Positions 12,241 to 16,097 of a DNA stretch of 51,065 nt are shown here, piece by piece; positions within the stretch are counted from its first letter, which is position 1; every line of letters starts with the position of its first letter. Source of the DNA: Myxococcales bacterium (lineage in GTDB: Bacteria > Myxococcota_A > Polyangia > Polyangiales > Houyiibacteriaceae); the NCBI GenBank assembly GCA_024640845.1, contig JAHEEE010000022.1:1-51065 (forward strand), given 5' to 3'. The notes below the pieces were generated by a model, which searched no databases, was not told the DNA's origin, and saw nothing but the letters and a program-made list of their open reading frames with translations. The translations under genes were made by a program, and so were the position numbers.

Positions 12241-14418
12241 ATGAGCGGTAACGAAATTCGTCTACAAGCGATCACCGAAGTCACCAATCGCGGTGAAACA
12301 CCCACAGGTCCCACTCCAGGGCCGCTGAGCGACATCTGGGCGACCGATGTCTTCAATCTCGCGACCATGGAGGAAGCTCTTTCGAAGAACGCCTTCAAAG
12401 CCATGAAGAAGACGGTGCAAACGGGAGCGCCGCTCGATCCTGCCACCGCGGATGTCGTCGCTGCGGCCATGAAAGATTGGGCGCTCTCGAAGGGCGCCAA
12501 GTTCTTCTCCCACATCTTCTACCCCATGACGAACATCACCGCGGAGAAGCATGACGGCTTCATCGTGACCAACGCGGACGGCCACGCGATCACCGAGTTC
12601 ACCGGGAGTCTGCTGATCAAGGGCGAGCCCGACGGTTCTTCCTTTCCGAACGGCAGCCTTCGAATGACCGCCGCCGCCCGCGGCTACACCGCCTGGGACC
12701 CGACGAGCCCCGTCTACGTCATGAACACCCAGAACGGCGCGACCCTGATGATTCCGAGCGTCTTCATGTCTTGGACGGGGGAGGCCCTCGACAAGAAGAT
12801 CCCGCTCCTTCGTTCGAACGCCGCGATGGACAAGGCCGCCAGAAAGGTCCTGTCGCTGATGGGCGAGACGGACATCGCGCCGCTCAGCTCGAGCTGCGGT
12901 GCCGAGCAGGAGTACTTTCTGGTCGACGAGCATTTCGCAAACCTCCGGCCGGATCTCCTGCTCGCAGGGCGCACCCTCTTCGGCGCGCCGTCACCGAAAG
13001 GCCAGGAGTTCGACGATCACTACTTCGGCGCCATCCCCGATCGGGTCCAAGTCTTCATGCAGGACTTCGAGGACAAGCTGTTCAAGCTCGGCATCCCGGC
13101 CAAGACCCACCACAACGAGGTCGCTCCGGGGCAGTTCGAGCTCGCCCCCTATTTCGAATCCGCGAACGTCGCCGCAGATCATCAGCAACTCATGATGACG
13201 ATCATGAAGAGCACGGCGCTCGAGCATGGCTTCCTGTGCCTGCTCCACGAGAAGCCCTTTGCTGGCATCAACGGTTCCGGCAAGCACGTGAACTGGTCGA
13301 TTGGCAACTCGACCCAAGGGAACCTCCTCGACCCAGGAAGCACGCCGCACGAGAACCTCAACTTCCTGTTGTTTTGCGGCGCCGTCATTCGAGGGGTCCA
13401 TCTTTACGGGCCGCTCTTGCGGGCCGTCATCGCAACTGCAGGAAACGATCACCGTCTCGGAGCCAATGAAGCGCCGCCTGCGATCCTGTCGGTCTACCTC
13501 GGCGATCTGCTCGAAGGAGTCTTCAACGACATCAAGGAGGGCAAGGTCTCCGTCTCGAACGATGGCGGCTTGATGGATCTCGGGCTCTCGCAGATCCTCC
13601 CGTTCAAGCGCGATCCCGGCGACCGAAACCGCACCTCTCCTTTTGCCTTCACCGGCAACCGCTTCGAGTTTCGGGCCGTGGGCTCTTCCCAGTCGGTGTC
13701 GGGCCCGCTCGTCGCGATGAACACGATCCTCGCCGATTCTCTCGAATGGATTGCCGGCAAGCTCGAAGCACAGCTGTCGAATGGAAAGGACCGGCCCGCC
13801 GCGGTTGCCGCCGTGCTGCAGGAGCTGATGCAGAAGCACGGCAACGTAGTTTTCGGCGGTGACGGATACTCGTCCGAGTGGCACGTGGCCGCCGTCGAGG
13901 AACGCGGCCTCAAGAACATCCCCACCACGGCCGACGCCCTACCGGTTCTGATGGAGCAGTCGGTCATCGATCTCTTCGAGCGCACGGGCGTGCTTTCGCC
14001 GGTCGAGCTCAAAAGCCGATATGAAGTGTACGCCGAGCAATACATCCTCTCGATCGGAGTCGAGGCCAAGCTGGTGGTGGAGCTCGCGAAAACGATTCTC
14101 TACCCGGCCACGATGTCGTACATCTCGAAGCTTGCGGCCACTCTCAACAGCGCATCGGCGCTCGGCGTCGAGTTCGAGTCCACGGCGGTGAAGAACATCG
14201 CCAAAGAAACGAACGAGATGATGGCCGCTGTCCAAGCACTCGAAGAAGCCCTGGCCAACCATCACTTCGATTCGACCGAGGCTCACATGAAGTACTGCGC
14301 CAGCACCGTGCGCGAGCTGATGGACCGCGTGCGTGTGCACGCCGATGCTCTCGAAACGCTCGTAGCTGACGAGTACTGGCCGCTCCCGAAGTACCGAGAG
14401 ATGCTCTTCATCAAGTAA
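12241..14418 (+). CDS. glnN: Glutamine synthetase type III
   Basis: 725 residues, the usual length for GSIII and far longer than GSI or GSII. It catalyses ATP-dependent amidation of glutamate. The N-terminal GSIII region (FFSHIFYPMTNITAEKHDGF, FTGSLLIKGEPDGSSFPNG) is followed by the catalytic core (CGAEQEYFLVD, KTHHNEVAPGQFELAP, HEKPFAGINGSGKHVNWS) and a GSIII-specific C-terminal helical region. The start ATG follows GAGGAAGAGCA. Upstream bases 12125-12240 contain a GATTCAC direct repeat but no convincing sigma-54 promoter. A weak 4-bp hairpin followed by TTTT lies after the stop (14422-14441). It converges on the peroxiredoxin gene. Confidence 0.95.
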   Translation: MSGNEIRLQAITEVTNRGETPTGPTPGPLSDIWATDVFNLATMEEALSKNAFKAMKKTVQTGAPLDPATADVVAAAMKDWALSKGAKFFSHIFYPMTNITAEKHDGFIVTNADGHAITEFTGSLLIKGEPDGSSFPNGSLRMTAAARGYTAWDPTSPVYVMNTQNGATLMIPSVFMSWTGEALDKKIPLLRSNAAMDKAARKVLSLMGETDIAPLSSSCGAEQEYFLVDEHFANLRPDLLLAGRTLFGAPSPKGQEFDDHYFGAIPDRVQVFMQDFEDKLFKLGIPAKTHHNEVAPGQFELAPYFESANVAADHQQLMMTIMKSTALEHGFLCLLHEKPFAGINGSGKHVNWSIGNSTQGNLLDPGSTPHENLNFLLFCGAVIRGVHLYGPLLRAVIATAGNDHRLGANEAPPAILSVYLGDLLEGVFNDIKEGKVSVSNDGGLMDLGLSQILPFKRDPGDRNRTSPFAFTGNRFEFRAVGSSQSVSGPLVAMNTILADSLEWIAGKLEAQLSNGKDRPAAVAAVLQELMQKHGNVVFGGDGYSSEWHVAAVEERGLKNIPTTADALPVLMEQSVIDLFERTGVLSPVELKSRYEVYAEQYILSIGVEAKLVVELAKTILYPATMSYISKLAATLNSASALGVEFESTAVKNIAKETNEMMAAVQALEEALANHHFDSTEAHMKYCASTVRELMDRVRVHADALETLVADEYWPLPKYREMLFIK

Positions 14419-14450: not shown

Positions 14451-14990
14451 CTAGGCCGCGTTCAGCGTGGGCTCGCCGGGAGTCCAGCCGCATGCGGTGA
14501 GCCCGCCGGTCTGCAGTGCATCGAGCACTCGAAGTACTTCGTCGACGTTGCGGCCGACGGAGAGGTCGTTGACGCTCACGAAGCGGATGACCCCCTCTGG
14601 GTCTACGATGTACGTGGCGCGCAGGCAGACGCCTGCCTCCTCATGGAGGATGCCAAGCGCGGTCGAAAGCTCGCGCTTGGTATCAGCCAGCATCGGGAAT
14701 GGGAGATCCTTCAATGCGGGGTGGTCGTTTCGCCACGCCAGATGCACGTAGTGCGTATCGGTGCTGCCGCCGAGAAGCTGCGCATCGCGCTTCTCGAACT
14801 CCGCGTTCTTGGCCCCGAACTCGGCGATCTCGGTGGGGCAGACGAAGGTGAAGTCCATCGGCCAAAAGAAAATGACGCGCCACTTGCCCGGGTGAGAGTC
14901 GTTCGTGATCTCGGCGAACTCCTCGCCTGGGTCCGTGCTCACGACGGCCTGTAGCGTGAAATCTGGAAACTGCTCGCCAACTGTATACAT
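14451..14990 (-). CDS. ahpC: AhpC-type 2-Cys peroxiredoxin
   Basis: 179 residues. The peroxidatic cysteine is in FTFVCPTE (about Cys51). A C-terminal ACGWTPGEP supplies the resolving cysteine (about residue 170), and a further Cys occurs in GVCLRATYIV. It reduces hydrogen peroxide, organic peroxides or peroxynitrite in the cytoplasm. The start is supported by AGGAGG (14995-15000) 4 bases upstream. It is 32 bases downstream of the Fur-family regulator on the same strand, so the pair is probably one peroxide-response operon. No AhpF or AhpD reductase is present in the window, so the electron donor is unknown. Confidence 0.94.
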   Translation of the reverse strand: MYTVGEQFPDFTLQAVVSTDPGEEFAEITNDSHPGKWRVIFFWPMDFTFVCPTEIAEFGAKNAEFEKRDAQLLGGSTDTHYVHLAWRNDHPALKDLPFPMLADTKRELSTALGILHEEAGVCLRATYIVDPEGVIRFVSVNDLSVGRNVDEVLRVLDALQTGGLTACGWTPGEPTLNAA

Positions 14991-15022
14991 GTGTCCTCCT
15001 AGTAGGGTGGTTGAATGAAAAA

Positions 15023-15436
15023 CTATCTTCGCGCTCGCTTGGGGCGGCGCGTTCCGCGGACCAGGACCTGGTAGTCTCGGACATCGAACCCCTCGAGCCG
15101 GTCGATCCGCCCGACTTCGAGAGCCTCCCAGGGCAGATCCAAGATCTCCCCGCTCTCCTCGTCGATGAAGTGGTGGTGCTTGTGCATGTTTGGGTCGAAG
15201 ACGACGCGCCCTTCGGTGACCACCAAAGCCTGCAAGAGGCCGTGGTCCACGAAGAGATTCAGCGTGTTGTAGACCGTTGCACGAGAGACCACCGGAAAGG
15301 ACACGCGCACCGCGTCCCAGACCTCATCGGCCGAGGGATGCTCGTCGGTGTGCAGGACGAACTCGGCGATCGCCAAGCGCTGGGCGGTGGCCCGAATGCC
15401 GTGCTTCTCGAGTCGAGCTGCGTCCGGAGGGAGCAT
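15023..15436 (-). CDS. Fur-family regulator, PerR-like
   Basis: 137 residues. The winged helix includes RATAQRLAIAEFVL and the recognition helix SRATVYNTLNLF; the dimerisation domain has the family HKHHHFIDEESGEI metal site. The two CxxC pairs that hold structural zinc in many Fur and PerR proteins are absent, and there are no cysteines at all. A perfect palindrome begins one base upstream of the ATG, and the AhpC gene follows directly, indicating peroxide sensing with autoregulation. No ribosome site can fit between palindrome and ATG, so either the transcript is leaderless or translation depends on read-through from the CPBP gene upstream. Confidence 0.9.
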   Translation of the reverse strand: MLPPDAARLEKHGIRATAQRLAIAEFVLHTDEHPSADEVWDAVRVSFPVVSRATVYNTLNLFVDHGLLQALVVTEGRVVFDPNMHKHHHFIDEESGEILDLPWEALEVGRIDRLEGFDVRDYQVLVRGTRRPKRARR

Positions 15437-15437
15437 G

Positions 15438-15458
15438 TTTTTAGACTTAGTCTAAAAA
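15438..15458. promoter_or_regulatory. Perfect 21-bp palindrome, Fur/PerR-type operator
   Basis: The arms TTTTTAGAC (15438-15446) and GTCTAAAAA (15450-15458) are exact reverse complements around TTA. It abuts the start codon of the Fur-family gene and lies in the 37-base gap after the CPBP gene. On the minus strand a TTGACG hexamer (15466-15471) upstream could be a -35 element, putting the -10 inside the palindrome. A-T richness in an otherwise GC-rich region supports function. Confidence 0.75.
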
Positions 15459-15473
15459 TAGACAGCGTCAAGA

Positions 15474-16097
15474 CTAGGCGACTGGAAACAGCACGAAAAC
15501 CAACAAATCCCAGGTCAGGTGGGCGAGCAGGGGTGCGACCAGCCCCCGCGTCTGTAGACGAAGCGCTCCCCAGATCAGTCCGCAGCCGAGCGCGACCACG
15601 ACGAGAAGCGGGGAACGAAAGGCAATCTGGGGAAAGGTATAGACGACGGCGGAGAGCAAGACCGCCCGAGTGCCGGGTCGAGCGCGCGCGAACACGTCGA
15701 TCGCGAGCTCGCGCCACACACGCTCCTCCGCGAATACGACGAGGACGAGCACGGGAAACGCCGCCACTGGGCCGGGCGTCTGTCGCAGCAACGCATAGAG
15801 CTTCGGCACCTCGGTATGGATTTGGGGGATCAGCTCGCCGCTGACCGGATACAGCCCCCAGGTCGCGAGCGACATCACAACGCCAGTCCCAACGCCGAGG
15901 AGCACGTTGCGATGGGTCACCTGCCACATGCCGTCGCCGTTTGGCTTGGATGAAAAACGCAGGAGCGCGAGGGCCGTCAACGCGGCGGCACCGGTTCCGA
16001 GCCAGATGTTGAGCTGCTCGCGAAGGCCCATCGCCACGCAAAAAGCCGAGATGCAAAGCGCCAGGATCAACGCGTTCGATCGGGCCTGCGTGCTCAC
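15474..16097 (-). CDS. CPBP family intramembrane metalloprotease
   Basis: 207 residues with about six hydrophobic segments. The CAAX/CPBP motifs are present: EERVWRE (the EExxxR motif), a following hydrophobic helix with FP, and HLTWDLLV near the C-terminus. The family includes Rce1-like and bacteriocin-self-immunity membrane proteases; the substrate here is unknown. The GTG start directly abuts the stop codon of the YbjT-like gene, so it is the last gene of a four-gene minus-strand operon. Its end lies 15 bases from the Fur palindrome. Confidence 0.85.
   Translation of the reverse strand: MSTQARSNALILALCISAFCVAMGLREQLNIWLGTGAAALTALALLRFSSKPNGDGMWQVTHRNVLLGVGTGVVMSLATWGLYPVSGELIPQIHTEVPKLYALLRQTPGPVAAFPVLVLVVFAEERVWRELAIDVFARARPGTRAVLLSAVVYTFPQIAFRSPLLVVVALGCGLIWGALRLQTRGLVAPLLAHLTWDLLVFVLFPVA

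Follow-up and report, generated by a model that had tools for sequence, protein, structure and literature searches.

How is a gene started when a perfect palindrome fills the space directly before its start codon? The question is raised by a pair of genes on the minus strand of a 51,065-nucleotide stretch of DNA from a Myxococcales bacterium, the whole of which is called the window here. The first gene (15023 to 15436) encodes a cysteine-free, PerR-like regulator of the Fur family, 137 amino acids long, and the second (14451 to 14990) an AhpC-type peroxiredoxin of 179 amino acids. According to the original prediction, the palindrome would be an operator that also blocks the start, and the regulator would be made either from a leaderless transcript or by read-through translation from the gene for a CPBP (Rce1-like) membrane protein that lies upstream (15474 to 16097, minus strand). 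The CPBP gene was not judged to be part of the operon unit. Comparison with related loci makes a leaderless, self-repressed perR-ahpC operon the probable answer, with the regulator as the proposed leaderless first gene.

The palindrome and the regulator start codon

The palindrome was described originally as a 9-3-9 repeat. It is real and perfect, but its symmetry is larger, 10-1-10, with the 9-3-9 form contained within it (TTTTTAGACTTAGTCTAAAAA, 15438 to 15458, no strand assigned). It was located by pattern search and coincides with conserved columns in the 49 aligned rows described below. At up to 3 mismatches on both strands it is the sole such site in the window, and 100 shuffles gave a mean of 0.00 sites. 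Only a C (15437) lies between the palindrome and the ATG (15436), and, as had been claimed, there is no space for a ribosome site upstream of this ATG; the ahpC gene has an AGGAGG Shine-Dalgarno (SD) sequence (15000 to 14995, minus strand) four nucleotides before its own ATG. A TAG stop codon lies inside the palindrome in the frame of the regulator and so there is no in-frame start upstream. The stretch that begins 5 bases short of the end of the 15-bp box and runs to about 30 nucleotides past the ATG has no other in-frame ATG, GTG, TTG or CTG, and no later translation start conserved in homologues was seen.

At the centre of the palindrome is a 15-bp core (15441 to 15455) that reads TTAGACT-A-AGTCTAA on the minus strand and, with its 7-1-7 form, is of the PerR box type. 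A -35 hexamer, TTGACG (15466 to 15471, minus strand), is found exactly 10 bp upstream of this box. The inferred -10 position, 17 bp after the -35 and 6 nucleotides before the ATG, is occupied by AAGTCT (15443 to 15448, minus strand). A degenerate second dyad, CTTGACG-C-TGTCTAT (15458 to 15472, minus strand), overlaps the -35 and is proposed below as a second binding site. The CPBP gene is separated from the regulator gene by 37 nucleotides and the regulator gene from ahpC by 32. An open reading frame of 725 amino acids on the plus strand (12241 to 14418), which we take to resemble a type III glutamine synthetase, converges on the end of ahpC with 32 nucleotides between them.

The layout in related loci

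A comparative set of 81 loci was assembled from the window's own locus and 80 of the 81 found with a 10-sequence alignment as query, using one genome per species; many of the 81 are related to one another and most are from MAGs. A box was accepted if it scored at least 8 of 10 outer bases. A full layout was defined as a -35 hexamer matching at least 5 of 6 bases, 9 to 11 bp before the 15-bp box, with a start codon 3 to 8 nucleotides after the box.

The consensus box is the 15-bp TTAGACT-N-AGTCTAA, accompanied by a TTGAC-type -35. A box of the accepted score was present in 70 of the 81 loci and was followed by an in-frame ATG, GTG or TTG in 68 of these 70. This conservation bears on a rival view of the palindrome, namely that an AT-rich inverted repeat arose there by chance or that the sequence serves the 3' end of CPBP as an RNA element. 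The sequence is indeed AT-rich and one perfect palindrome of such size could arise by chance, but the recurrence of the 15-bp core in 70 loci with a fixed -35 spacing argues against this. With a loop of a single base the palindrome as drawn could not form an RNA hairpin, and no terminator was found, so that we regard this explanation as barely credible.

The full layout of -35, box and start was present in 54 of the 81 loci, in records labelled as several phyla. The spacing from -35 to box was exactly 10 bp in 49 of the 54, and the start codon (ATG in 29, GTG in 25) lay 28 to 33 nucleotides after the -35 hexamer. The gap between box and start was 3 nucleotides in 3 loci, 4 in 14, 5 in 22, 6 in 7, 7 in 6 and 8 in 2. 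By record label, the full layout was found in 21/26 myxobacterial, 12/18 planctomycete, 9/16 acidobacterial and 6/7 'Deltaproteobacteria' loci, in 3/3 labelled 'Proteobacteria', in 1/1 of Krumholzibacteriota, 1/3 of Elusimicrobia and 1/3 unnamed, and in 0/4 of a group made up of KSB1, Armatimonadetes and Bdellovibrionota, the grouping being our own. Culturable relatives that have the layout include Polyangium and Minicystis rosea (L055, L057, L059, L077 and L090).

Within the window's genus the regulator is encoded in 7 of 19 genomes (E ≤1e-20), and it has either been gained or lost often or been overlooked in incomplete bins. In six of these seven, exactly 10 bp separate a TTGAC-type -35 from the box, and the start codon follows the box by 3 to 4 nucleotides. 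The seventh (L022/L052) has a variant box, lacks that -35 and starts 21 nucleotides after the box.

The remaining 27 of the 81 loci are without the full layout. In L103 and L104 the box and the start fit and the -35 scores 4/6; in L068 and L084 the start lies 16 and 14 nucleotides after the box. Several failures, including L074, L101 and L118, have no convincing box, and no good box was found for the further-removed regulators L023, L024 and L026, two of which, L023 and L026, appear from their sequences to be identical with L074 and L118. On a tree of 50 rows the phylum label changes 14 times where the minimum is 7. Transfer is possible, but the labels of MAGs and the presence of paralogues prevent us from claiming it.

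Promoter spacing and the predicted leaderless start

A start codon 2 to 8 nucleotides after the box was found in the gene's own frame in 57 of 70 loci, as against 5/70 and 2/70 in the other two frames. A TTGAC sequence 25 to 37 nucleotides before the start was present for 44 of 68 regulators and for 7 of 734 other open reading frames of at least 200 amino acids, the starts of this background being simply the first ATG or GTG, that is crude longest-ORF starts. SD sequences were scored as AGGA, GGAG or GAGG at -17 to -4. None of the 54 full-layout regulators has one, compared with 35 of 47 ahpC genes and 123 of the 734 background frames, although the zero is in part a consequence of the box taking up these positions. 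Read from the DNA, what occupies the SD interval before these 54 regulators is the box and nothing else.

For the analysis of columns, the 49 rows with a spacing of exactly 10 were aligned and the 5 rows with 9 or 11 were dropped. The first five bases of the -35 and most columns of the box were nearly fixed and the flanks were close to random. The conserved columns are thus those of the box and the -35, in agreement with the prediction of an operator lying over the promoter. The hexamer 17 bp after the -35 was TAGTCT in 28 rows and CAGTCT in 7, and the distance from it to the start codon was 5 to 10 nucleotides throughout, and 5 to 8 in 41 of the 49. The usual distance from a -10 hexamer to the transcript start is about 6 to 8 nucleotides. 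With a 17-bp spacer the -10 thus falls within the box, and transcription is predicted to begin at the start codon's first base or close to it. The lack of an SD sequence is combined here with a spacing that would place the transcript start at the start codon, which is the sequence pattern of a leaderless repressor-first operon. Together with the layout in 54 of 81 loci and the bias in frame, this comparison supports the predicted leaderless transcript.

The main weakness of the leaderless reading is the inferred -10, which in the window matches TATAAT at 2/6 positions (the family consensus TAGTCT matches at 3/6), and the result of a sigma-70 consensus scan of 14900 to 15700, which found no promoter. 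This would suit leadered expression, in which the regulator is made mainly from a transcript that arises by CPBP read-through or from an upstream start and is translated by coupling or by SD-independent initiation, the box being no more than a roadblock or a minor promoter's operator. The CPBP gene does end just 37 nucleotides upstream on the same strand. However, the TTGACG begins 3 nucleotides after the CPBP stop codon, and the -35/box/start layout is kept in relatives, none of the 11 tested having a CPBP gene in this position. A CPBP homologue was seen in 3 of these 11 loci, divergently oriented in two (L049 and L050) and about 1.4 kb upstream in the third (L048). Read-through translation from the CPBP gene is thus not supported as a general mode, and we consider leadered expression unlikely.

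The regulator protein and the neighbouring genes

The regulator belongs to the Fur family (PF01475, 80.9 bits against a cut-off of 23.1). Its 137 residues include no cysteine and thus neither of the two CxxC motifs for structural zinc. The original prediction was correct on both points, but the lack of a structural zinc site is not unusual, since PerRA and PerRB of Leptospira are described as lacking it too (PMC8638851). Within the PDB set the regulator was closest in sequence to Leptospira PerR (5nl9, 2.5e-19), then to PerR of Bacillus subtilis (2fe3). The predicted structure (pLDDT 91.6) gave PerR 3f8n, Fur 4rb2 and PerR 5nl9 as the best Foldseek matches.

In the alignment to 2fe3, residues H33, D81, H87, H89 and D100 fall on what we take to be the regulatory ligands of B. 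subtilis PerR (H37, D85, H91, H93 and D104), and D92 and S95 stand at its cysteine positions. The five ligands and N57 are invariant in 50 aligned homologues, picked from the 81 loci to reduce near-copies. Asn61 and Asp104 of B. subtilis PerR are regarded as canonical PerR residues (PMC8638851), and both diagnostics are present here, as N57 in the recognition helix and as an Asp (D100) rather than a Glu at the metal site. The curated PerR profile cut-off was missed: the NCBIfam scores were 97.6 bits for PerRA (NF047462) against a cut-off of 200, 92 for IrrA against 150 and 89.9 for Irr against 170. As these scores are close and all below their cut-offs, the protein is called PerR-like and is not assigned to a named PerR subfamily. 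By its sequence it is PerR-like, and it would presumably sense peroxide.

The next gene encodes a member of the AhpC/TSA family (PF00578), scoring 149 bits with TIGR03137, under that profile's cut-off of 272 bits. A gene of a peroxide-defence type lies just downstream of the regulator in 68 of the 81 loci and in 49 of the 54 full-layout loci. These genes are ahpC in 47 loci, katG in 10 (one partial), catalase in 4 (one a fragment), MauG-type di-haem proteins in 4, counted as peroxide-related by family name only, and rubrerythrin in 3. No peroxide-defence gene was found downstream in 13 of the 81 loci, in one of which just 2 nucleotides of downstream sequence are available. L096 and L109 have the full layout, and a peroxide-defence gene was not found downstream of either by the comparisons made.

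The regulator might instead be iron- or manganese-responsive, that is Irr- or Fur-like, and not a peroxide sensor. The closeness of the PerRA, IrrA and Irr scores, all far below cut-off, would allow this, the box resembles the Irr motif TTTAGAA-N3-TTCTAAA, and cysteine-poor proteins occur among Irr. The PerR-type Asn and Asp, invariant in 50 sequences, and the peroxide-defence-type neighbours in 68 of the 81 loci argue for a PerR-like sensor, and leave an Irr- or Fur-like regulator improbable.

Pairing of the recognition helix with the box was also considered. Among 69 loci with a box score of at least 8 and a readable helix, residue 52, which precedes ATVY, is Arg in 64. In 54 of these 64, box position 6 is C; the other 5 loci have Leu, Met or Thr in the helix and, without exception, A in the box. 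This covariation was rejected as proof because the rows without Arg form one separate clade, so that the changes are not independent.

A second dyad at the -35 hexamer

Conservation in the 49 rows extends to the columns at -8 to -4 relative to the box, which read GTCnA (C at -6 in 45 rows, A at -4 in 39), and the columns adjoining them were near random. These columns and the GAC of the -35 together make up CTTGACNNNGTCnAA, which is a degenerate box with its centre 17 bp upstream of that of the main dyad. The mean number of complementary pairs at this centre was 3.55 of 7, against 1.78 when each 10-nucleotide spacer was shuffled, and 0 of 2000 shuffles reached 3.55. A GTC with at least 2 of 3 matches was found at the dyad offset in 45 of the 49 rows and at other spacer offsets in at most 12; when the set was thinned to 22 rows with dissimilar spacers the counts were 19 of 22 and at most 4. 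In the same scan, centres 4 and 10, which are side-lobes of the main palindrome, scored 3.18 and 3.61. Thus the size of the second-dyad peak is not special in itself, and what sets it apart is its position in an otherwise free spacer. Since the left-hand GAC is also fixed by the promoter, we would call the dyad a candidate binding site.

It may be that the promoter consists of tandem PerR boxes 17 bp apart, a weak one upstream whose left half serves as the -35 and a strong one downstream whose right half contains the -10, and that such loci make up a cross-phylum class of leaderless PerR switches. We offer this tentatively and think it somewhat doubtful. Were it true, promoter strength and repressor affinity could not evolve separately, and occupancy of the second box would grade repression.

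Proposed mechanism and comparison with known systems

The proposed unit is a two-gene peroxide-defence operon in which the first gene encodes a PerR-like repressor without structural zinc and has a promoter made largely of the repressor's own operator. The metal-loaded repressor, bound to the box and perhaps also to the weaker second dyad at the -35, would cover the -10 and shut off both genes. Peroxide would oxidise a metal-ligand histidine, the repressor would leave, and RNA polymerase would then start at or within a few bases of the start codon of the regulator. From a shared transcript, the leaderless regulator would be translated poorly and ahpC well by means of its own AGGAGG, so that one message would give little repressor and much enzyme.

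The leaderless repressor-first design is already known. In mycobacteria the 5' end of the furA-katG transcript is at the furA initiation codon (PMC2358910), and the furA1-katG1 mRNA of Mycobacterium smegmatis is described as leaderless, with the -35, -10 and FurA site marked upstream (PMC12713383). As here, a repressor gene (FurA is a peroxide-responsive Fur-family repressor) comes first and a peroxide-detoxifying gene second, but those are Actinobacteria and the second gene is katG rather than ahpC; the two arrangements are compared here by gene order and by transcript start, which for the present locus is predicted. The passages of these two papers on the furA promoters describe no second dyad. 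The acuR-acuI-dddL operon of Rhodobacter sphaeroides is also leaderless and repressor-first; its operator overlaps the promoter, SD sequences are found only on the later genes and the first gene is translated at a lower level (PMC3017554). The present locus shares the repressor in first place, an SD sequence on the later gene and, as predicted from sequence, the operator over the promoter and the leaderless start. AcuR, unlike the regulator here, is a TetR-family repressor that responds to acrylate, and its operator is TAATAGAC-n6-GTCTATTA (PMC3017554).

Among the proteins, PerRA and PerRB of Leptospira interrogans lack the cysteine structural metal motif and have the canonical PerR Asn and Asp (PMC8638851). 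The regulator resembles them in both respects, a likeness drawn from the proteins alone, but falls far below both NCBIfam cut-offs. It resembles B. subtilis PerR in the alignment of all five regulatory ligands and in the fold match to 3f8n, but lacks the Zn(Cys)4 site of that protein. The B. subtilis PerR box is likewise of 7-1-7 form, with bases that differ from those of the box here.

What appears to be new is the PerR-like lineage without structural zinc, its box, its breadth and the second dyad. As a rule, leaderless genes come to light through RNA mapping in a few model groups. In the present loci the sequence ties the position of the start codon to the promoter and the operator, in records labelled Myxococcota, Planctomycetota, Acidobacteriota and others, and a leaderless start can therefore be predicted from DNA alone and tested. 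The arrangement would also be an uncomplicated way for one message to yield little sensor and much enzyme.

Other copies of the box

Further copies of the palindrome near peroxide or iron genes, which the original prediction had led one to look for, did not appear in this genome, where there is one exact box. At up to 2 mismatches the genome had 28 sites, against 56 for a reversed control pattern. The sole site with 1 mismatch (L002) extends into the start codon of a long, unrelated open reading frame and was judged to be due to chance. The combined pattern of -35 and box likewise gave one exact site in the genome; with as many as 3 mismatches allowed there were 6 forward sites and 5 reverse ones, where the control gave 8 and 7. 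The other of the genome's 2 Fur-domain matches, C25, has no such box. A single exact box suggests that the regulator is probably a local autorepressor or switch. In a phylum sample of 282 genomes, exact TTAGAC-N3-GTCTAA occurred in 8 and the control pattern was no rarer; the short box by itself is therefore no evidence of a regulon.

The exact consensus string of the box had no match in the open-licence literature, and no title on a leaderless PerR was among the matches listed there. The sequence is thus offered as a distinct and testable candidate PerR-type box for groups in which none was found described in the open-licence literature searched. Cysteine-containing Fur-family paralogues in relatives (L027, L029, L031, L037 and others) often have, upstream of the regulator gene, boxes like TTAGAA-N3-TTCTAA and not TTAGAC-N3-GTCTAA, and some of these paralogues are followed by rubrerythrin-like genes.
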